From assembly GCA_016188575.1 (NCBI GenBank), contig JACPHN010000136.1, forward strand, positions 1-18,037: a stretch of DNA of 18,037 nt, given 5' to 3'. The DNA comes from Candidatus Schekmanbacteria bacterium. Its GTDB lineage: Bacteria > CSSED10-310 > JACPHN01. Position numbers and translations under genes: made by a program. The notes beneath the pieces are model-generated. The model saw nothing but the letters and a program-made list of their open reading frames with translations. It made no database searches and was not told the DNA's origin. Below, piece after piece: positions 1,137-15,777 of this stretch (positions are counted from its first letter, which is position 1; each line of letters begins with the position of its first letter).

Positions 1137-1451
1137 TTATTCGGCGCGAGCCGCGCCCTTGCCGCGGCGTCGCATGATCTCCGCCGCCTGCTCGAGGATC
1201 CACTCCGGCCCGAGCGCCTGGCACAGCCGATCGCGCCCGATCTCGGCGATCACGCGATCGAGGCCGACTTCCTGGATCACGCGGGCCAGGCCGAGATCCT
1301 CGATGGCGCCCTTGATATCGATCGTTTTCCGTACCATTTCGATCTCCTTCTCGCTGGCGACCTCGCGAAGCGCTTCCCTGCGGTACATGTAGAGCGGCAT
1401 GAGGTAGCGGGTCAATTGCTGATTCAGCACGACGCGGACCCCGCTCCTCAC
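1137..1451 (-). pseudogene. Truncated Rpn-like copy (C-terminal ~100 aa), coupled to helicase stop
   Basis: Residues 6-104 of this frame match the C-terminal third of the full copy from VRVVLNQQ onward, with one VIEEVGLDR repeat missing and a few substitutions. Homology to the full copy stops at position 1440; the first half, including the nuclease-like D...ExK part, is absent. The remaining open frame can start at GTG 1451, which overlaps the TGA stop of the helicase as GTGA, so translation by coupling is possible and would add MRSG before the conserved part. It is most simply the remnant of a third array member, cut where it joins the helicase locus. Whether the tail peptide is made or has a function cannot be told from sequence. 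Confidence 0.7.
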
Positions 1452-4540: not shown

Positions 4541-4969
4541 ATGGCGGGTCGTGGAGTCGCCGCGCTGGAACATACGCTGAAGCTGCCGCATGAGGCGGCC
4601 AGGCAGCTCGCCGAGGAGCTCTACGCTGATTTTGCGGAGCGCTTCCGCGAGGAGGGAATCATTCGCGCGGCGATCGGTGCCGCGACGGCGGCCGCCGAAA
4701 AGGCGATCGAGCTGTCCCCGACAGTCCAGAGAATCGAGAGGCGGCTCGATGGCATCGACACCCGGCTCGATGGCATCGACACCCGGCTCGACGGCATCGA
4801 TACCCGGCTCGACGGCATCGATACCCGGCTCGATGGCATCGACACCCGCTTGGGGACGGTGGAGACCGACGTCCACTACCTCGTCCAGGCACGCCACGTG
4901 GACCGCACGAATATCGAGACGCTGCTCACGCACTTCGGGCTCCCTGTCAAGCGTGATGACCGCGAATAG
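4541..4969 (+). CDS. Small coiled-coil protein with RLDGIDT heptad repeats
   Basis: A 142-aa soluble protein of unknown function. Residues 1-65 are helical and charged (AEELYADFAERFREEG). Residues 68-102 are five exact RLDGIDT heptads followed by a sixth, altered one (RLGTVET). L and I recur every seven residues, as expected of a parallel coiled coil. The tail (VDRTNIETLLTHFGLPVKR) is helical. There is no signal peptide or membrane segment. It is transcribed divergently from the helicase and stands alone. Similar heptad rods occur in small hypothetical proteins and in DUF1640-like coiled coils, but I cannot assign it to a family. The start is supported by AGGAGG at 4528-4533. Confidence 0.8.
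   Translation: MAGRGVAALEHTLKLPHEAARQLAEELYADFAERFREEGIIRAAIGAATAAAEKAIELSPTVQRIERRLDGIDTRLDGIDTRLDGIDTRLDGIDTRLDGIDTRLGTVETDVHYLVQARHVDRTNIETLLTHFGLPVKRDDRE
4742..4846 (+). repeat. Five tandem 21-bp repeats encoding RLDGIDT
   Basis: Units run 4742-4762, 4763-4783, 4784-4804, 4805-4825 and 4826-4846. All encode the same heptad. Units 1, 2 and 5 use GAT GGC ATC GAC, whereas units 3 and 4 use GAC GGC ATC GAT, so two sequence types alternate in blocks. That is typical of expansion by slippage or unequal exchange. Confidence 0.95.
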
Positions 4970-5668: not shown

Positions 5669-5710
5669 GTTTTTCATCCCGTCCCATCAACTCTGCGCCG
5701 CCACTGCCCT

Positions 5711-5715
5711 GGAGG
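5711..5715 (+). promoter_or_regulatory. Ribosome binding site fixing the GGDEF-EAL start
   Basis: GGAGG with eight bases to the ATG at 5724. It favours this start over the in-frame ATG at 5640. Confidence 0.75.
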
Positions 5716-5723
5716 CTCGCCCC

Positions 5724-8240
5724 ATGGAGCAGACCGCCGAAATGCTTGCCGCCGCGCCCGAGTCGCTGCGGGTGCTCATCGTGGAAGATTCCGAAGCCGA
5801 TGCGATGCTGCTGCAGCGCGATCTGCGCAAGAGCGGCTTTGCGATCACCTCACGGCGCGTCGAAACGGCGGCGGCAATGCGCGAGGCCCTGGCGACGGAG
5901 CATTGGAACCTGATCATCTCGGACTACTCCATGCCGACCTTCAGCGGCCTCGCGGCGCTGAAGCTTCTGCAAGACACCGACCTCGACCTCCCTTTCATCA
6001 TCGTTTCCGGCGCCATCGGCGAAGACATCGCCGTCGAAGCGATGAAGGCCGGCGCGCATGACTACATCATGAAGGGAAACCGCGCCCGGTTGTTCCCGGC
6101 GATCCGCCGCGAGCTCCGCGAAGCCGAGGAGCGGCGCCAACGCCGCGCCGGCGAAACCGCGCTGCTGGAGAGCGCCTCCCGCATTCGCTCCATCATGGAC
6201 AATGTCGCGGACGCCATCTTCAACATCAGCCCTCGCGGCTGCATCGAGACCTGCAACGCCGTGGCGCTGCGCATGTTCGGATACGAGGCCCGTGAGCTGC
6301 TCGACCAGCCGCTCGCGCTGCTTTTTCCGCCGCCCGATTGGGAGGAGCTCGCCGCGTGCCTCGCCGGCTTCGCGACGACCGCCGCCCCGCGGCGCTTCGG
6401 CGAACGCCGCGAAATCCAGGGACTGCGCAAGGGCGGCGAACAGTTCCCGATGGAGCTCGTGGTGAGCCGCATGCTTCTGGAGCGGGACAGCTCGCTGATC
6501 ATCGCCGCCCACGACATCTCCGATCGCAAGCAGGCCGAGCAACAGCTTCGCAAGCTGTCCATGGCGGTCGAGCAGAGCCCCAACATGGTCGTCATCACCG
6601 ATCCGCTCACGCGCATCGAGTACAGCAACCGCCGCTTCACCGAATTGACGCAGTTCACCTCGGCCGAGGCGCTCGGCAAGCGCGCCGACGAGCTCGATCT
6701 GCGCGGACTCGCGCCCGAGGAGTACGAACGCGTCTGGACCTGCGTGCGCCAGCAAGGGGAATGGAAAGGCGACATCGAGGGGCGAAAGAAGTCTGGAGAG
6801 AGCTTCTGGGAGCACGTCAGCGTCTCGCCAATTCGCGATGCAGCCGGCGGCATCACGCACTATCTCTTTGTCAAGGAAGACATCACCGAACGAAAGCAGG
6901 CGGCGGCGAAGATTGCCTACATGACCCATTACGACCAGCTCACCGACCTGCCGAACAAGACGCTCTTCGTGGAAAAGCTGTACCAGGCGATGGAAACCGC
7001 GAAGGCCAGCCGGAAGATGGTCGGCGTCCTGTTTCTGGACCTGGACAACTTCAAGGTCCTCAACGACAGCTTCGGGCACGGCATCGGCGATCAGGTGTTG
7101 CAGCAGGTCACCGCGCGGCTGCTGACGTGCGTGACGGACCGTCACATTGCGGCACGGGAGAGCGGCGACGAATTCATGATTCTCATGCCCGACGTGGAAA
7201 ACGTTGGCGAAATCGACCGGTTGGCAGAATGCGTGCTGGCCGTCCTGGACGCGCCCTTCGCGATTCAGGGCCACGACCTGCACTTCGGCGTCAGTATCGG
7301 CATCAGCGTCTACCCGCTCGACGGCGACGTGCCGGCGGTGCTGCTGCGCAACGCCGACACGGCCATGTATCGCGCCAAGGGGGAAGGTGGGAATCGCTTC
7401 GAGCACTACGCGCGGGAGATGAACGCCCGTTATCTGGAGCGCCTGTCCATCGAAAGCGCATTGCGCAAGGCGATTTCGCGCGGCGAGATCGTGCCGTATT
7501 ACCAGCCGCAGGTGGATCTGGAGACCGGGCGGCTGCTGGGTTTCGAGTCGCTCGCGCGCTGGATCCACAAGGAGCGCGGGGTCATGCCACCCGACGCGTT
7601 CATTTCGGTAGCGGACGAGAGCGGCCTCATCGTGCCGATTTCCGAGCTTGTGCTGCTGCGCTCGGCCGCCGACACTGCGACCTGGAATGGAGGACAGGCG
7701 GCGCCGTTGGTCGTGGCGGTGAATCTCTCCGCCCGCCAGTTCAAACCCAGCCTCATCAGGCTGCTCCACCGCGTCATTGCGGAGACGGGAATCCATCCTG
7801 GCTATCTGGAGCTGGAGCTCACCGAGGGCATCTTGATGGAGGACACCAATGAGGCGATCTCGCTGATGCGGGCGCTCAAGGATCTGGGCGTGCTGCTCGC
7901 GGTCGATGACTTTGGCACGGGGTACTCGTCGCTGCGCTATTTGCAGCGGCTGCCAATCGACAAGCTCAAGATCGACCGGAGCTTCGTCATGGACCTGCCG
8001 CACAACAAGGACGACGCCGCGATCGTCGGCGCGGTCATCGCCCTCGCTCACAAGCTCGATCTGCAGGTGATCGCGGAGGGCGTGGAGACGGAGAGCCAGT
8101 TGGCGTTTCTGCGCTCACAAGAGTGCGACCAGGCGCAGGGGTACTTGTTCGGGCGGCCACTGCCGGGGCAGGATATCCCGGAGCTCATCCGCACGTGGCG
8201 ACACGGTCGCCCCGCGGCGGACGGGTCGCGCGACCGCTAG
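5724..8240 (+). CDS. REC-PAS-PAS-GGDEF-EAL protein, probable c-di-GMP phosphodiesterase
   Basis: An 838-aa cytosolic signalling protein. Residues 15-130 are a receiver domain with phospho-acceptor D67 (SDYSMP) and K117. Two PAS domains follow (about 150-270 and 275-395). The GGDEF domain (about 396-565) has SGDEF at 480-484 in place of GG(D/E)EF and lacks the RxxD inhibitory site, so cyclase activity is doubtful. The EAL domain (about 575-825) keeps its catalytic set: E608 in ESLARW, N667 in NLSARQF, ELTEG, D728-D729 in DDFGTGYSSL, K747 and E785 in AEGVET. It should hydrolyse c-di-GMP, with the GGDEF part perhaps only binding GTP. The start is the ATG at 5724, because GGAGG ends eight bases before it; an upstream ATG at 5640 overlaps the promoter. 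A membrane histidine kinase follows after 8 bp, a likely partner that could phosphorylate the receiver. Confidence 0.93.
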   Translation: MEQTAEMLAAAPESLRVLIVEDSEADAMLLQRDLRKSGFAITSRRVETAAAMREALATEHWNLIISDYSMPTFSGLAALKLLQDTDLDLPFIIVSGAIGEDIAVEAMKAGAHDYIMKGNRARLFPAIRRELREAEERRQRRAGETALLESASRIRSIMDNVADAIFNISPRGCIETCNAVALRMFGYEARELLDQPLALLFPPPDWEELAACLAGFATTAAPRRFGERREIQGLRKGGEQFPMELVVSRMLLERDSSLIIAAHDISDRKQAEQQLRKLSMAVEQSPNMVVITDPLTRIEYSNRRFTELTQFTSAEALGKRADELDLRGLAPEEYERVWTCVRQQGEWKGDIEGRKKSGESFWEHVSVSPIRDAAGGITHYLFVKEDITERKQAAAKIAYMTHYDQLTDLPNKTLFVEKLYQAMETAKASRKMVGVLFLDLDNFKVLNDSFGHGIGDQVLQQVTARLLTCVTDRHIAARESGDEFMILMPDVENVGEIDRLAECVLAVLDAPFAIQGHDLHFGVSIGISVYPLDGDVPAVLLRNADTAMYRAKGEGGNRFEHYAREMNARYLERLSIESALRKAISRGEIVPYYQPQVDLETGRLLGFESLARWIHKERGVMPPDAFISVADESGLIVPISELVLLRSAADTATWNGGQAAPLVVAVNLSARQFKPSLIRLLHRVIAETGIHPGYLELELTEGILMEDTNEAISLMRALKDLGVLLAVDDFGTGYSSLRYLQRLPIDKLKIDRSFVMDLPHNKDDAAIVGAVIALAHKLDLQVIAEGVETESQLAFLRSQECDQAQGYLFGRPLPGQDIPELIRTWRHGRPAADGSRDR

Positions 8241-8244: not shown

Positions 8245-8248
8245 AGCC

Positions 8249-10759
8249 ATGCGAGGCGTCGCCGCCATGAGCCTTCGCGCCAAGCTCGTGACCATGACGA
8301 TTCTCATCGTGGCGCTGGCGCTGGTCACAGCGTTCGCAGTGCTGACTTTTCTGGAGTGGTCGCGGTCGCGAGCGCGCCTGGCCCAGACCGTGACAGCCGT
8401 AACCCATGGGGTGGTGCGCCACCTCGAACGCGACATCGGTGACCTCGAACCCAAGCACGCCGCGGACATCCTCGCGACGATGCAGTACCTCCCGGGCTTC
8501 ACGTATGCGGCGCTGTATGATGCGGTGGGGAAGCGGTTTGCGGCGCAGAGCGCGAGCGGCGGCGGTGGCGGCAGTGGCGGCGGCGAGATTCCCGAGCAGT
8601 TGCCGTCACCGGAGCCGGACGGGGTCACCGTATCGCCGCTCGCGGCGCGCGCGCGTTTGCCGGTGATGATCGTCGGCCAGCGCGCCGGAACGTTGGTGGT
8701 GGTGTTGTCAACGGCGCCGCTGCACGCGGCGATTCGCGACGACGCGGCCTGGATGGCCGTGATCATGGCGACGGCTCTCCTGGTCGTCGCCATCCCCGCA
8801 TATCGCGCGCAGCGCCGGCTGACCGCGCCGATCCTCCGCCTCGCGGACGCGGTGCGACAGGTAACGGAAACAGGTAACTACCGGATGCGCGTGGTGCGGT
8901 CGGCCGGGCACGAGCTCGCGGTGCTCTCCGAGGGGATCAATGCGATGCTCCAGCAGCTCGAGGATCGCGCGCGCGACGTCTACGAGGCGGCGGCGAACCT
9001 GGAGGGGTCACGGGCGAGCTTGAAGGAAACGGAGGCGCGGCTGGTGCGCGAGCAAACGGCGTTGGCGCGGCTCGCGGGCCTGAGCATGACGCCGGGAAAG
9101 TTCCTCTGTGGCTTCGCCGACGAGGTCGGCAAGACCCTGGAGGTGTCGGCGGTGAGCATCTGGCGGTTCGACGGTGAGCGCACTTCCTTGCGCTGCCTGC
9201 ACAACCACGGCCTCGGGCCGCATCACGAATCCGAGCTGCAGGTTCCGGTCGAGGCGCTGCCCGATTACGTCGCTGGCATCAAGCGCGGCCGGCGCCTCGT
9301 GGTCGCCGACGCCCACGGTGAACCCGCCAGCCGGGGCCTGGCTTCCTACTACGCGGAGGCGTTCGGCATTCGCCTGGGCGCGGCACTCCACGTGCCGCTG
9401 CGGATCAGCGGCCAGGTCGCCGGGGTGCTCGCTCTGGACATGCTGCAAACGCCGCGCACCTGGTTCGCCGACGAGGAGAATCTCGCCGTCGCCGTCGCGG
9501 AGATGCTCTCCCTGAATTTCGAAGAGGACCAGCGCCGCAAAGCCGAGAGGGCGCTGCGCGAAAGCGAAAATCGCTTTCGGAGTCTGAGCGACGCATCACC
9601 CATCGGGATATTCCTCACGGATACCACCGGTGACGTCATCTACCTCAATGCCAGGTTGCGCGAGCTCTCGGGAATCGCGCCGCGGACGTCGATCGGCAAC
9701 AGATGGCACGCCGCTATCCACCCGGACGACGTTGCCGCGCACATCGGGGCATGGGATGAAGCCATGCGGTCGGCCGCGGAGTATTTCTGCGAATACCGCC
9801 TGACCGGCCCGGCAGGGCGCGTCCGTCAGGTGCGCTCGCGGGCAAGCCGGCTCACGGATGATCGGGGCAAGATGATCGGCTATGTCGGCACGGTCGAAGA
9901 CATCACCGACTTGCGGGAACAGGAGGCGCGCATCACGCGGCTCAACGAAGAGCTTGAGCATCGCGTGGAGGAACGCACTCGTGATCTCGCCGCGGCGCTC
10001 AAGGAGCTCGAGTCGTTCAGCTACTCCGTGTCGCACGATTTGCGGGCGCCGCTGCGCCACGTCGACGGGTTCAGTCAGGCGCTGCTCGAGGATTACGACG
10101 CCGCGCTCGATGACACGGGCCGCGACTTTCTGCGCCGGATTCGGGCCAGCGCCGAGCGCATGGGACAGCTCATCGACGACATTCTCCGCCTTTCGCGCGT
10201 GACCAGCGCAGAAATGAATCGCAGCGAGCTCGATCTCAGCCAGTTGGCCAGAGAAATCGCTCAGTCGCTTTCCGAATCCGCGCCCTCCCGCGTCGTGTCC
10301 TGGGAGATCGCGCCAGATATCGCCGGCAACGGTGACGCGAGTCTCGTTCGTGTGCTCCTGTCCAACCTGTTTGAAAACGCCTTCAAGTATACCAGCAAGA
10401 AACCGGAGGCTGAAATCTCGTTCAGCTCCAGCCGCGATAGTAACGGCATACGCACCTACTGCGTCCGTGACAACGGCGCCGGCTTCGACATGGCCTACGC
10501 ACACAAGCTGTTCCATGCCTTTCAGCGCCTGCATGCGGACAGCGAGTTCGCGGGCACGGGCATCGGCCTGGCGACGGTGCAGCGCGTCGTGCGCCGGCAT
10601 GGGGGGCACGTTTGGGCGGATGGCAAGGTCGGGCAGCACGCGCGTTTCTACTTTACGCTCGGGGCCGATCGCGACACGGACAGGATGCTGTCGGCGCCGC
10701 AGCATGCGGAGCCGGCGCCGAGCGAGGGCCGAGGTCTTGCTTTCACGGGGTCAACTTGA
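8249..10759 (+). CDS. Membrane sensor histidine kinase (HAMP-GAF-PAS-HisKA-HATPase)
   Basis: An 836-aa inner-membrane sensor kinase. Transmembrane segments lie at about 14-35 and 167-184 and bracket a periplasmic domain of about 130 residues, which contains a Gly-rich stretch (103-112). A HAMP linker follows (about 185-240), then a GAF domain (about 270-425), a PAS domain (about 440-556), a coiled coil, and HisKA with H596 in SHDLRAPLRHVDGF. The ATPase has its N box (N706, N710), DNGAGFD (741-747) and GTGIGLA (769-775), so the kinase should be active. The HisKA/ATPase pair is of the phytochrome-kinase type. There is no receiver of its own. It sits 8 bp after the REC-GGDEF-EAL gene, which suggests co-transcription and a phosphotransfer pair; the split receiver downstream is a second candidate partner. 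The signal it senses is unknown. Confidence 0.93.
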   Translation: MRGVAAMSLRAKLVTMTILIVALALVTAFAVLTFLEWSRSRARLAQTVTAVTHGVVRHLERDIGDLEPKHAADILATMQYLPGFTYAALYDAVGKRFAAQSASGGGGGSGGGEIPEQLPSPEPDGVTVSPLAARARLPVMIVGQRAGTLVVVLSTAPLHAAIRDDAAWMAVIMATALLVVAIPAYRAQRRLTAPILRLADAVRQVTETGNYRMRVVRSAGHELAVLSEGINAMLQQLEDRARDVYEAAANLEGSRASLKETEARLVREQTALARLAGLSMTPGKFLCGFADEVGKTLEVSAVSIWRFDGERTSLRCLHNHGLGPHHESELQVPVEALPDYVAGIKRGRRLVVADAHGEPASRGLASYYAEAFGIRLGAALHVPLRISGQVAGVLALDMLQTPRTWFADEENLAVAVAEMLSLNFEEDQRRKAERALRESENRFRSLSDASPIGIFLTDTTGDVIYLNARLRELSGIAPRTSIGNRWHAAIHPDDVAAHIGAWDEAMRSAAEYFCEYRLTGPAGRVRQVRSRASRLTDDRGKMIGYVGTVEDITDLREQEARITRLNEELEHRVEERTRDLAAALKELESFSYSVSHDLRAPLRHVDGFSQALLEDYDAALDDTGRDFLRRIRASAERMGQLIDDILRLSRVTSAEMNRSELDLSQLAREIAQSLSESAPSRVVSWEIAPDIAGNGDASLVRVLLSNLFENAFKYTSKKPEAEISFSSSRDSNGIRTYCVRDNGAGFDMAYAHKLFHAFQRLHADSEFAGTGIGLATVQRVVRRHGGHVWADGKVGQHARFYFTLGADRDTDRMLSAPQHAEPAPSEGRGLAFTGST
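8557..8583 (+). repeat. GGC/GGT-rich microsatellite encoding a poly-Gly linker
   Basis: A run of glycine codons broken by one serine codon gives SGGGGGSGGG in the periplasmic sensor domain of the kinase. It is a low-complexity tract liable to change length by slippage, in steps of three bases that keep the frame. Confidence 0.8.
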
Positions 10760-10784
10760 TAGATTCAGGTGCCGCGCCGATAAT
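10756..10784 (+). promoter_or_regulatory. Predicted strong sigma70 promoter of argF
   Basis: TTGATA (10756-10761) and GATAAT (10779-10784) are separated by 17 bp; each matches the consensus at five of six positions. The -35 box overlaps the kinase stop codon. Transcription would start near 10791, about 20 bases before the argF ATG. This is the best promoter match in the window. I see no ARG box (ArgR operator) around it. Confidence 0.7.
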
Positions 10785-10810: not shown

Positions 10811-11782
10811 ATGTCCCACAGCTTGCGCGGCCAGAGCCTGCTGAGCCTGGCCGACGTCAACTCCGAGACGCTCTTCAAGCTTCTCAAGACGGCGATGAAT
10901 TTGAAAGGCCGTCTGGCTGGCGGGGAACATGAGTCACTGACCAAGATCCTGCCCGGGCGCGTGATCGTTCTCGTTTTTCAAAAGCCCTCGCTGCGCACGC
11001 GCGCGAGCTTCGAGATCGCCATTCGCCGTCTCGGCGGGAGCTCCATCTACCTGGCTCCGGGTGATGTCGGGCTGGACACTCGCGAGCGCACCGAGGACGT
11101 CGCCAAGGTCCTGGGTCGCTATGCGGACGCCATTGTCGCGCGCGTTTTCGGCCATGACATCGTCGAGCGCCTGGCCCAGCACGCCGGGATTCCCGTCATC
11201 AACGCGCTCAGCGACATGTACCACCCATGTCAGGCGCTGGCGGATCTCCTGACGATCACGGAGACCTTCGGATCGCCGACCGGCGTCAAGCTCACGTACG
11301 TCGGCGATGGCAACAACGTCGCCCATTCGCTGCTTCTGGCCAGCGCGCTCGCCGGCATGCAGATCACCGTTGCCTGCCCCCGCGGCTACAAGCCCAATCC
11401 GCGCGTGCTCGAGATCGCCGGTCGTCTCGCCATCGCGGGCGCCAGCTTCTCCGTCGTGCACGACCCCCGCGAGGGCGTCCGCGACGCCGACGTGATCTAC
11501 ACGGATGTCTGGGCATCCATGGGCGAAGAGCACGAGGCCGCGGAACGGCGCGTCGCCTTTGCCGGATACCAGGTCAATAGGGAGCTGCTCGAAGCCGCCA
11601 GAAATGGGCACGAGCGGGTCGTCTCCGGGCGCCGCCTGCCAATTGTGCTGCATTGTCTCCCCGCCCACTACGGCGAGGAAATTACCGAGGATGTCGTGGC
11701 CGAGCATCCTGAAATCTTTGAGCAGGCCGAGAATCGGCTTCACGCGCAGATGGCGCTTCTCGCACAGATTCTCCGACGGTAG
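10811..11782 (+). CDS. argF: Ornithine carbamoyltransferase
   Basis: A 323-aa enzyme that joins carbamoyl phosphate and ornithine to give citrulline in arginine synthesis. Residues 60-64 are SLRTR, the carbamoyl-phosphate loop (STRTR in most members), with HPCQ at 138-141, DGNNVAHS at 166-173, DVWASMG at 232-238 in the ornithine region and HCLP at 281-284. SMG and HCLP separate it from aspartate carbamoyltransferase. Length is normal for the family and nothing is missing. GGAGG at 10800-10804 is six bases before the ATG. It lies between a sensor kinase and a receiver gene and not with other arg genes; a strong promoter of its own precedes it. The anabolic form is likely, as no arcA or arcC lies beside it. 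Confidence 0.95.
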   Translation: MSHSLRGQSLLSLADVNSETLFKLLKTAMNLKGRLAGGEHESLTKILPGRVIVLVFQKPSLRTRASFEIAIRRLGGSSIYLAPGDVGLDTRERTEDVAKVLGRYADAIVARVFGHDIVERLAQHAGIPVINALSDMYHPCQALADLLTITETFGSPTGVKLTYVGDGNNVAHSLLLASALAGMQITVACPRGYKPNPRVLEIAGRLAIAGASFSVVHDPREGVRDADVIYTDVWASMGEEHEAAERRVAFAGYQVNRELLEAARNGHERVVSGRRLPIVLHCLPAHYGEEITEDVVAEHPEIFEQAENRLHAQMALLAQILRR

Positions 11783-11789
11783 CCATGAA

Positions 11790-12506
11790 ATGGAGCGAGC
11801 GGATAAACCGACGATCTTGGCAGTAGACGACTGCGAAGAGCTGTTGGACTGGCTCGAAATCGACCTGACGAGCCGGGGATTCAGAGTCCTGACTGCGCTG
11901 AACGGCGAGAGCGCGCTCACCGTTGTCCGCGAAAACCCCATTGACATCATGATCTTGGACGTGATGATGCCGGGTTCGCAGCGCCTTGTGGAGTTTCTCG
12001 AGCGCAACCCCGTGTACCTGGAGGGCAGCGCGCTCCGGTTGGACGTCGGTCTCATTGTGCGCGAGGGCGGACGATTTCGGAGCCTGTGGGAGGTCATCGC
12101 CGACGATACCGTGGTCCCGCCGTTGGCAGGCGAGCTCGGTTCGTCGCGACCCAGCCCCGTGCAGGGGGCCAAGGCCGTGTTCACGCTTGCGGGCAGCGAG
12201 CAATTCTGCGCCGAGCACGGGGTGATCCGCCTTTCCTTCGACGGGTTTACGGTCTGCCAGCTCATTTCCTCCAATACCCGCCTGCCGCGGTCGCCCGTCA
12301 TCTACCTGTTCACCGCTGGCGGGATCGGCTCGGAAGGCGAGCGGGAACGGCGCGCGGCGGAGGTCGGGGCGGAACAATACGTGCTCAAGAACGAGTACTA
12401 CGATCGGCTGATTCCGCTGCTCGAGCAGCACCTGCCCACCGAGGTGGTGCGAGTGCCACGGGCGAGCACCACCACCGCGAGCTCGGCACCAGGCACCGGG
12501 AAATAG
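11790..12506 (+). CDS. Receiver-domain protein split by an 87-residue insertion
   Basis: A 238-aa protein. Residues 7-62 are the first half of a receiver domain: acidic pair D13-D14, phospho-acceptor D57 in ILDVMMPG. Residues 150-215 are the second half: FDGFTVCQLI, then T175 in PVIYLFTA, K200 in YVLKNE and a final helix. Joined together they make one normal receiver (MPG-FDGF is the usual loop). Between them sit residues 63-149, which match no family I know and contain predicted strands (ALRLDVGLIV, GAKAVFTLAG). A Ser/Thr tail follows. The ATG at 11790 is seven bases after the argF stop and has no clear ribosome binding site, so translation may be coupled to argF. It has no output domain and may serve as a phospho-relay partner of the upstream kinase. 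Confidence 0.85.
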   Translation: MERADKPTILAVDDCEELLDWLEIDLTSRGFRVLTALNGESALTVVRENPIDIMILDVMMPGSQRLVEFLERNPVYLEGSALRLDVGLIVREGGRFRSLWEVIADDTVVPPLAGELGSSRPSPVQGAKAVFTLAGSEQFCAEHGVIRLSFDGFTVCQLISSNTRLPRSPVIYLFTAGGIGSEGERERRAAEVGAEQYVLKNEYYDRLIPLLEQHLPTEVVRVPRASTTTASSAPGTGK

Positions 12507-12613: not shown

Positions 12614-13729
12614 TCACACCAGACCCGCCCAGACGGCCACCGCCGCGGCGATGGCCGCCAGGCCGGCCGCAACGCTGAAGGCGCGCCGCCAGCGCTCCGG
12701 CTGGGCGCTACGAGCGACCTTCGTAGCCAGCGCCGCCATCGCCGCCGCCGCCACGACCGCGCCAACGGCGCCTCCCGACGCGATCCCCATGACGGGGCTC
12801 AAAACAACCCCAGAGCCAGTGCTCGCCGTCGAATCGAGGGGGATGACGCGCCGAGCCGCGTCCATGCCCGCGGCAACTCCGGCCACGGCCGCCATCGCGT
12901 AGCGCCCCGACGGCGCGCCGGTCGCCACATTCTCGCCGGCCAGATAGAGCAGCACGAGCACGAGCGCCGCCTGGAGGCCGGGCGCCGGAGGTGATGCCAA
13001 TGCAGATGAGAAGGCTGCGCTTCCGGCGGCGTACGCCGCCACGAAGGCCGCGGTGGTGAGCGCTGTGCCGCGCGGCCGTGTGGCGCCAAGGCAGGCCAGC
13101 AGCACACCCGCCACCGCGGTCGGCGGTAGAAAGACGGCGAGCAGCGAGCGCCAAAAGGTCACTACAAAGGTCCGGCTCGCGAGCACCTCCGTATCGACGA
13201 CCAGCGTGAGCTCGTGCGCGGCCGACGTCAGGATGTGCTCCTTGCGATCGCGATCCGTGACTACGGCAAGCACGTTACGGTGCGCCGGGGCGCGAGCGAA
13301 AAAAGCAGTATAGCTGAATACCCAGACGGGCTCCGCCAGTGAGCACTGGCCGGTGAGCACCACGTCTACCGTGGCAGCGGCGGCGATCTCGTAGGGACCG
13401 GGCCGTAATGCGCACGTTGCCCCCGTCGCGTCGCGAAGCGCAGTGTTGCTCGCGAGGTAGGCCGCCGTTGCCGCCGCCATCTCGCTCAGCGATCGCTCCA
13501 TGCCTACTGCGGCTCCGGGCCCGTCCCCCTCCACCCCTTGCGTGAGGTCCACGAGCGTAAAGGTTTGCCGGTAGGTCACCGTCGGAGGCGATATGGTCAG
13601 GCGCGCGGTCGTATCGCCGCGCGGGTGCGCGCGGACCTCGATCCCCAGAAGCAGCACCATGGTCACGGCTGAGACGACGAGCGCGAGCGGTCGCGACCCG
13701 CACGGAAACCGCAGCCAACCGTGAATCAC
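12614..13729 (-). CDS. Multi-spanning membrane protein, distantly HupE/UreJ-like
   Basis: A 371-aa membrane protein. A signal-like hydrophobic segment (about 14-33, ending before VRAHPRGD) leads into a periplasmic domain of about 155 residues with paired cysteines (C106, C129), then five or six membrane segments (about 193-214, 223-242, 250-267, 276-290, 305-335, 348-369). The layout and the LYLAGENV stretch recall HupE/UreJ_2 proteins, which have a periplasmic N-terminal part and an xALEN motif. The metal-binding His/Asp signature of that family (HxxxGxDH) is not present, so nickel or cobalt transport is not supported. The start is GTG 13729, which overlaps the stop of the DUF4388 gene as GTGA; upstream frame extending to 14017 is antisense-like, Arg-rich and lacks a signal sequence at its start. 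It is co-translated with the DUF4388 gene. Confidence 0.7.
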   Translation of the reverse strand: MIHGWLRFPCGSRPLALVVSAVTMVLLLGIEVRAHPRGDTTARLTISPPTVTYRQTFTLVDLTQGVEGDGPGAAVGMERSLSEMAAATAAYLASNTALRDATGATCALRPGPYEIAAAATVDVVLTGQCSLAEPVWVFSYTAFFARAPAHRNVLAVVTDRDRKEHILTSAAHELTLVVDTEVLASRTFVVTFWRSLLAVFLPPTAVAGVLLACLGATRPRGTALTTAAFVAAYAAGSAAFSSALASPPAPGLQAALVLVLLYLAGENVATGAPSGRYAMAAVAGVAAGMDAARRVIPLDSTASTGSGVVLSPVMGIASGGAVGAVVAAAAMAALATKVARSAQPERWRRAFSVAAGLAAIAAAVAVWAGLV

Positions 13730-15777
13730 GGCCGCTTGAGCCGGGCGAGCGCCTTCCGGGCGTCGGCGTGGGCGGGGTTGTAGGTCAAGGCGCAGCGCAG
13801 ATCCTCCTGCGCGCGCGCGTTGTCGCCCGCCTTCATGTGGATGACACCGAGGATGTAGTGAAAATCGGCGTTCAGCGGTTCCATCTCGATCGACTTGCGG
13901 GCGCAGCGCTTGGCCTGATCGATGCTTGCGCCGCTCTCCGCGAGAATGGCCGCAGCGGCGGCGTAAAATTTGGCCACGGTCGGGTCGGCGGCGATCGCTC
14001 GGTTGACCAGATCCCACGCGTCTTGCAGGTTCCCAGTCTGATGCGCTTTCTCCGCGAGCGCGAAGAGCTTTCGGCCTGCCTTGGTCGCCACATGCTGCTT
14101 CAAGCTGCGATAGTACTGCAGATAGCTCGCGTTCCCAGGGTCGAGGCTCGTAGCCTTCTCCATCATGGTCAGGGCGTCTTCCAGGTGATCGAGCTCGACG
14201 GTGCGCTGCACGTCCTTGTAGATAGCCGCCGCTTTGGCAACGCGGTCGGCGTGCTCGGCGGCGGCAGTCGGCACGACCGGGGGTCGCGCCGCGGGCACAT
14301 CTGCCTGCACGAGCACGGGAGATGCTGGGGCGCGGGAAGACACCTCCGCCTGCTCGTAGGAGACAATGCGCCGCGGCGCCGCGCCATCACCATCGCCGCC
14401 GCCGCGATCCCGTGCAGCGCGCCCCTCGTCTGCGGCCTTCGCTGCCGGCGGCCGCGCCACCGGGGAGGCCCCACCACCATCGCCCTGTGCGCCGGCGAGT
14501 GGAGCGACCGCCGGGAGGGCGAGCGCCGGGTGGGCGGGCGCCGGCGCCTCGACCGGCTTGCGGTCGGGGCTGGCCGCAGGCTGGTGGGAACGACGCGGCG
14601 CGAGATCGATGGCGCCAATCTTCGCGAGCTCCTCCAGAACTTCATAGGTGCGTAACCGGGACAGGCCGCTGATGGTACAGAGATCGCCGTTCGAGGTTTG
14701 CCCGTCAATCTGGCTGAGCACGAACCCCGCCTCGATGGTCATGGTTGGTGAGGTACCGATGCCAAACTCGTGCCGCCTGCGAGGGATCTTCCGCTCAGTC
14801 CCGACAGTGCGCACCAGAGCGCGCATATACGCGGCCTCGGACACCTTGAGCTCATGCTCCAGGCTTTCGAGGTCCGCGCGGGCACGGTCGGACTCCAGGC
14901 GCCCGCGCAACTCGTGCAGCAGCTCCAACGCCTTCTCGAAAGACCCTTCCGCGACAAGCTTCCGGCAGCGATCGCGAATTGCCTTGAAGGACGTTTGTCC
15001 AGATGGTTTCTCTGCGCTCGCGCCGGCTGGCGGCCGGTCCAGGAAAGTCGTGGCGTGTGTCGACGGCTCCGGCGGCGCCTCGACGCGGCGCACCAGTTCC
15101 CACCGGATGAGGCGCGCGAGCGCCGAACAGGCGTCGAATGCCAGGACGTGGCTTTCGGTGGCAATCATGCGCGCCGTGCGGTGTCCGTCGACAAGGGAAA
15201 GGACCTCCTGTTCCGCCGGAGTCAGGAAAGCATGTCGCGGGTGCTTTTCGGCTCCCGTGACGACCTGCAATACCGTATCCTGGCTACCGAGGTAGCGCTG
15301 AGTCTCCTCCCATTCTCCGAAACGCCGGATGCCCTCCATCAGCGTGCCCGCTGAGGCCAGGCGAAGAGATTGTGTCACCTTATTGGGAAGCGGCTCCTCG
15401 AAACGGAACTCGCCGCTCCGCCAGCGCGACAGGCCGAAAATGATCTTCTCCGTCAGCTCCTTGAGCACGAGCGTGAGATCATGAGCCGTAATCAAGCGCG
15501 CCGAGACGAGGTAATCGGTGAGGTTGGTGTGCGACCTCTCGCTTTCGAGGAGGCCAACTTCAAGCTGTTCGGGGCCCAACATGCCGCGCTCGACCAGAAA
15601 CGCCCCCACGCGTTCGCTCGGTTGGTTCGAGCTCGCGTAAATGAGGTCACCGCGCAGGAAATACAGCAACTTTTCATCACCGGCGGAGGCGAACCGGATG
15701 CAGCCCGACTTCCTGCAAAAGTGCAGATGGTGCAGGACCTGCGAAAGCTCAATATCGGCGAGGTTTCCTTGGAGCAT
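13726..15777 (-). CDS. DUF4388 (PATAN) protein with C-terminal TPR repeats
   Basis: A 683-aa cytosolic scaffold protein. Residues 1-130 are a DUF4388/PATAN domain (MLQGNLADIELSQVLHHLHF, LLYFLRGDLIYA), found in gliding, type IV pilus and two-component settings of myxobacteria and relatives. Two copies of a winged-helix-like motif follow, about 186-232 (LSLVDGHRTARMI...) and 342-392 (LSQIDGQTSNGDL...). Next is an Ala/Pro-rich linker (about 395-510). From about 512 to the end there are three to four TPR repeats (ALTMMEKATSLDPGNA, AWDLVNRAIAADPT, ARKSIEMEPLNADFHYILG, AQEDLRCALTYNPAH). It should act through protein contacts. The ATG at 15777 has no obvious ribosome binding site, but a promoter lies about 60 bp upstream. 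The stop overlaps the next gene as GTGA, so the two form an operon. Confidence 0.88.
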   Translation of the reverse strand: MLQGNLADIELSQVLHHLHFCRKSGCIRFASAGDEKLLYFLRGDLIYASSNQPSERVGAFLVERGMLGPEQLEVGLLESERSHTNLTDYLVSARLITAHDLTLVLKELTEKIIFGLSRWRSGEFRFEEPLPNKVTQSLRLASAGTLMEGIRRFGEWEETQRYLGSQDTVLQVVTGAEKHPRHAFLTPAEQEVLSLVDGHRTARMIATESHVLAFDACSALARLIRWELVRRVEAPPEPSTHATTFLDRPPAGASAEKPSGQTSFKAIRDRCRKLVAEGSFEKALELLHELRGRLESDRARADLESLEHELKVSEAAYMRALVRTVGTERKIPRRRHEFGIGTSPTMTIEAGFVLSQIDGQTSNGDLCTISGLSRLRTYEVLEELAKIGAIDLAPRRSHQPAASPDRKPVEAPAPAHPALALPAVAPLAGAQGDGGGASPVARPPAAKAADEGRAARDRGGGDGDGAAPRRIVSYEQAEVSSRAPASPVLVQADVPAARPPVVPTAAAEHADRVAKAAAIYKDVQRTVELDHLEDALTMMEKATSLDPGNASYLQYYRSLKQHVATKAGRKLFALAEKAHQTGNLQDAWDLVNRAIAADPTVAKFYAAAAAILAESGASIDQAKRCARKSIEMEPLNADFHYILGVIHMKAGDNARAQEDLRCALTYNPAHADARKALARLKRP

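Follow-up and report, generated by a model that had tools for sequence, protein, structure and literature searches.

Few bacterial domains are as numerous as receivers, whose partners are normally joined at the receiver ends. A gene in the window (the whole stretch of DNA analysed, 18,037 nucleotides from Candidatus Schekmanbacteria bacterium) raises the question of whether a receiver can also hold a module of domain size inside its own phospho-acceptor loop, and of what such a module would do there. The gene and its parts are the following:

11790..12506, + strand: split-receiver gene, 238 amino acids; start ATG at 11790, stop TAG at 12504-12506, frame open throughout
11808..11975, + strand: receiver N half, residues 7-62; beta1-alpha1-beta2-alpha2-beta3 followed by MMPG, with the acid pair D13/D14 and the phospho-acceptor D57
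11976..12236, + strand: insert, residues 63-149 (87 amino acids), in the beta3-alpha3 loop, between MPG and DGF
12237..12434, + strand: receiver C half, residues 150-215; alpha3-beta4-alpha4-beta5-alpha5, with T175 and K200
12435..12503, + strand: C-terminal tail, residues 216-238, probably disordered and missing from the homologue P0002 described below

The three main parts are alike in GC3, with 0.80 for the N half, 0.84 for the insert and 0.85 for the C half.

Two halves of one receiver

The protein contains one CheY-like receiver in two halves, residues 7-62 and residues 150-215. The Pfam profile PF00072 (Response_reg) covers residues 9-62 and nothing further, because the second half sits 87 residues further on; the contiguous domain of about 110-120 residues, which is usual for receivers and not strictly defining, is not found here. 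With a receiver HMM built for this analysis from 40 ordinary receivers, the two halves joined scored 96.8 bits against 79.7 bits for the full protein; the N half alone reached 65.0 bits and the C half alone 18.5 bits (none of 141 scored shuffled C halves exceeded 5.0), and the insert, at -2.3 bits, was unmatched.

Regarding the catalytic residues, all the key receiver positions are kept (D13, D14, D57, T175 and K200); these five and the backbone at 59, which together make the active site, all fall outside the insert, so that the phosphotransfer chemistry can be kept. Judging from sequence and model, the split receiver is probably phosphorylatable. The original prediction of an interrupted receiver with its key residues in place, and of an in-frame insert of 87 residues beside the active site, is thereby borne out by the open frame, the HMM scores, the structural model and the homologue.

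As for the known single-domain regulators of the CheY/DivK/Spo0F type (PF00072), the split receiver resembles them in its full fold, in its catalytic residues and in having no C-terminal output domain (none was recognised after the receiver in Pfam and NCBIfam profile searches). It differs from them by the 87-residue module in the beta3-alpha3 loop, by a longer, Gly-rich beta4-alpha4 loop (FTAGGxGSxxER), and by KxEYY, in which the K has xEYY after it in place of P; both of these C-half traits are common to the homologue. The closest NCBIfam match of the N half was PleD (E 9.7e-14), and in the PDB alignment the N-terminal receiver of PleD has, after MPG, the motif DGFTVC that the split receiver also carries; PleD, however, is devoid of the insert, and the split receiver of the GGDEF domain. 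Membership of the PleD family (REC-REC-GGDEF) was rejected, with a score of 51 bits against a curated cut-off of 474 and no GGDEF in the protein.

Predicted structure

The AlphaFold2 model predicts a complete (beta-alpha)5 receiver fold for the split receiver. Its elements run in the order beta1-alpha1-beta2-alpha2-beta3, insert, alpha3-beta4-alpha4-beta5-alpha5: beta1 8-12, alpha1 16-28, beta2 32-36, alpha2 39-48 and beta3 53-57 in the N half, which has a pLDDT >90, and alpha3 152-161, beta4 170-174, alpha4 182-191, beta5 196-199 and alpha5 200-214 in the C half. When superposed on DivK, residues 6-219 of the model cover its full 123 residues, with Z 19.8, rmsd 2.1 and 24% identity; many other receivers also match it at Z 18-20, and the significant named matches in a viral fold search were receivers and histidine kinases. 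The input alignment, in which 40 ordinary receivers accompanied the window protein, already treats both halves as one receiver, which favours a complete-receiver outcome; the modelled fold is supporting evidence, not independent proof, and the profile scores and the homologue support one receiver independently of it.

The original prediction had proposed to check whether the two parts fold as one CheY-like domain with the insert as a separate lobe: the single domain was recovered, and the insert was modelled with low confidence, its pLDDT being about 43-62 within the full model and 39, too low for a fold search, when it was folded alone. Both predictions agree, at this low confidence, on the first helix of the insert and on a beta hairpin at 89-98.

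A homologue with the same insert

A single homologue was found, P0002 (L009/L117, genome G002), which comes from a different family of the same small phylum and matches the window protein with E 4e-40 and 38% identity over residues 6-215. It keeps the acid pair, the phospho-acceptor Asp, the Thr and the Lys, and it carries a homologous insert in the identical position, of 86 residues against the 87 of the window protein. The insert diverges faster than the receiver halves (23% identity, against 52% for the N half and 45% for the C half); nonetheless, the two inserts align with a score of 70, whereas shuffled sequences averaged 23.6 (sd 4.1), and 20 of their positions are identical, including S63, R72-N73, F139 and H143-G144-V145. 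The C halves of the two proteins share LFTAGGxGSxxER and LKxEYY. The cores of these motifs (FTAGG and K[SN]EYY) are confined to the two genes among all ORFs of the 123 fetched loci; among the 182 receiver ORFs of these loci, the split architecture is limited to just these two genes.

Since a protein of another family has a homologous insert at the same position, comparison of the two sequences indicates that the insert is real, old and conserved, neither a recent insertion nor an artefact; it dates back at least to the divergence of the two families in the phylum, or else it was transferred between them. An origin by assembly error, by recent insertion at a microhomology or by a fusion, now decaying, of two half receivers is therefore extremely improbable, although the assembly is a draft of 275 contigs and the word TTCG stands at both junctions, where the original prediction took it for the mark of an insertion or microhomology event. 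The same architecture in the independent genome G002 already refutes this origin and excludes the artefact, and both the open frame and the intact catalytic residues speak against it. The junction repeat is due to chance, because the window contains TTCG 85 times and the gene itself four times, and because P0002 differs at the 3' junction, where it reads CTTG; the claim of a recent event fails with it, the insert being common to proteins only 38% identical. The fusion of two half receivers was rejected on the insert itself, which has no similarity to receivers (-2.3 bits).

Regarding further members, searches of about 1,340 genomes with a two-member profile yielded none, the scoring in the larger searches being limited to the top 7-35 candidates of each genome; the lack of a third member reflects search sensitivity as well as rarity. 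The insert alone, searched against the phylum, retrieved just the two known genes, all others having E 0.29 or worse, and residues 63-149 had no match in Pfam, NCBIfam, PHROGs or PDB sequences; no full-length relative occurred in the viral contigs, plasmids or phages searched. A motif scan of the genome contigs gave ordinary receivers among the matches listed, driven by YxLKxEYY and the generic motif LDVMM, and its two top matches (L037 and L038) were ordinary receivers when checked by hand. Two profile-search matches, L122 (1276-1686, - strand) and L123 (1267-1686, - strand), were likewise rejected as ordinary single receivers. These belong to another phylum, are single-domain proteins without the insert, and have an unusual, longer segment past the Thr, LLTARxVxxxxREExFVxTWSRAD.

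Receivers are known to vary in the loops near the active site, as in ETR1-RD and CckA-Rec (PMC4972365, PMC9981736); these differ by loop conformation or irregular short segments, whereas the split receiver differs by a domain-sized module. No description of a receiver split by an inserted module of such size was found in the open-licence literature. The split receiver is a genuine, if rare, variant of a very common signalling switch.

Possible role of the insert

From the observed architecture and its conservation, we infer a function for the insert: the protein is most likely a single-domain response regulator in which the insert is an output or partner-binding module coupled to the phosphorylation loop, a reading that has about an even chance of being correct. 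The complete receiver, with its intact active site, would accept the phosphoryl group at D57; the beta3-alpha3 loop would close upon phosphorylation, and the insert would thereby be moved or released and act as the output or partner-binding module, a role proposed for it because no output domain follows alpha5. The Gly-rich beta4-alpha4 loop and KxEYY, common to both members, may form its docking surface. This reading is consistent with the two halves making one fold, with the catalytic residues present in both members, with the conservation of the insert across families, with the special motifs of the C half, with the missing output domain and with a same-strand histidine kinase nearby; counted against it are the low-confidence model of the insert, the number of known members (two), their differing neighbourhoods, and the faster evolution of the insert, which a loosely constrained decoration would also show.

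The insert could instead be an input or gate that covers the active site and times the phosphorylation and dephosphorylation of D57, perhaps via a ligand, with output through the alpha4-beta5-alpha5 face. The insert directly follows the MPG of the phospho-acceptor loop, and the protein retains the usual output face, which bears motifs common to both members, as a gate would have it, but no ligand-binding family was recognised in the insert, and we consider this role unlikely, if worth keeping in mind. Rather improbable, too, is a passive role, in which the insert would be a structural decoration that the fold tolerates (or a lobe that stabilises or dimerises the protein) and would do nothing specific in switching: the rarity of the insert and its lower identity (23%, where the receiver halves have 45-52%) agree with it, while the near-equal lengths (87 and 86), the twenty identical positions kept over the divergence of two families and the special motifs of the C half argue against it.

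More broadly, the two genes could represent a previously undescribed response-regulator family with the output module inside the phospho-acceptor loop rather than at the receiver end, in which phosphorylation is read directly by a domain atop the active site; this wider proposal is tentative, and we find it somewhat doubtful at present. If true, it would be a new way of coupling phosphorylation to output. A conserved, domain-sized insertion in the beta3-alpha3 loop means that a module atop the active site can be accommodated by the receiver fold, and may be used by it, and the loop would offer a permissive site for protein engineering.

Gene neighbourhood

Upstream of the split-receiver gene, the window encodes the following:

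5706-8240, + strand: REC-PAS-GGDEF-EAL protein gene, upstream of the histidine kinase gene
8246..10759, + strand: histidine kinase (HAMP-GAF-PAS-HisKA-HATPase), two genes upstream of the split receiver
10811..11782, + strand: ornithine carbamoyltransferase-type gene (argF-like; Pfam OTCace and OTCace_N), directly upstream of the split receiver

The start codon of the split receiver lies 7 nt downstream of the stop of the argF-like gene, and the two are likely co-transcribed. The histidine kinase is a possible cognate kinase; a promoter-like site at 10756-10784 may start an argF and receiver unit, separating the kinase gene from both. In G002, a cluster of the MoxR-DUF58-BatA type lies downstream of the receiver gene, with a gap of ~24 nt that depends on the MoxR start being the GTG at L117:1700 (after GGAG). 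No neighbour gene is shared between the window locus (argF) and the G002 locus (MoxR-DUF58-BatA), and the differing neighbourhoods therefore indicate no common pathway.

Elsewhere in the window, a probable membrane protein with hydrophobic stretches and no Pfam match (12614-13732, - strand) is adjoined by the gene of a DUF4388-TPR protein (13726-15777, - strand). A small protein at 4541-4969 (+ strand), probably a coiled coil, has five 7-residue repeats GIDTRLD (4742-4848; 21-bp unit, 95% matches), its sole match being a sub-threshold one to DUF7310. Finally, the ORFs at 207-1067 and 1137-1451 (both - strand) are partial tandem duplicates: the C-terminal 109 residues of the former recur in the latter, of 104 amino acids, with 87% identity (a 9-residue gap counted), and the duplicates differ in the number of 9-residue units (27-bp repeats).
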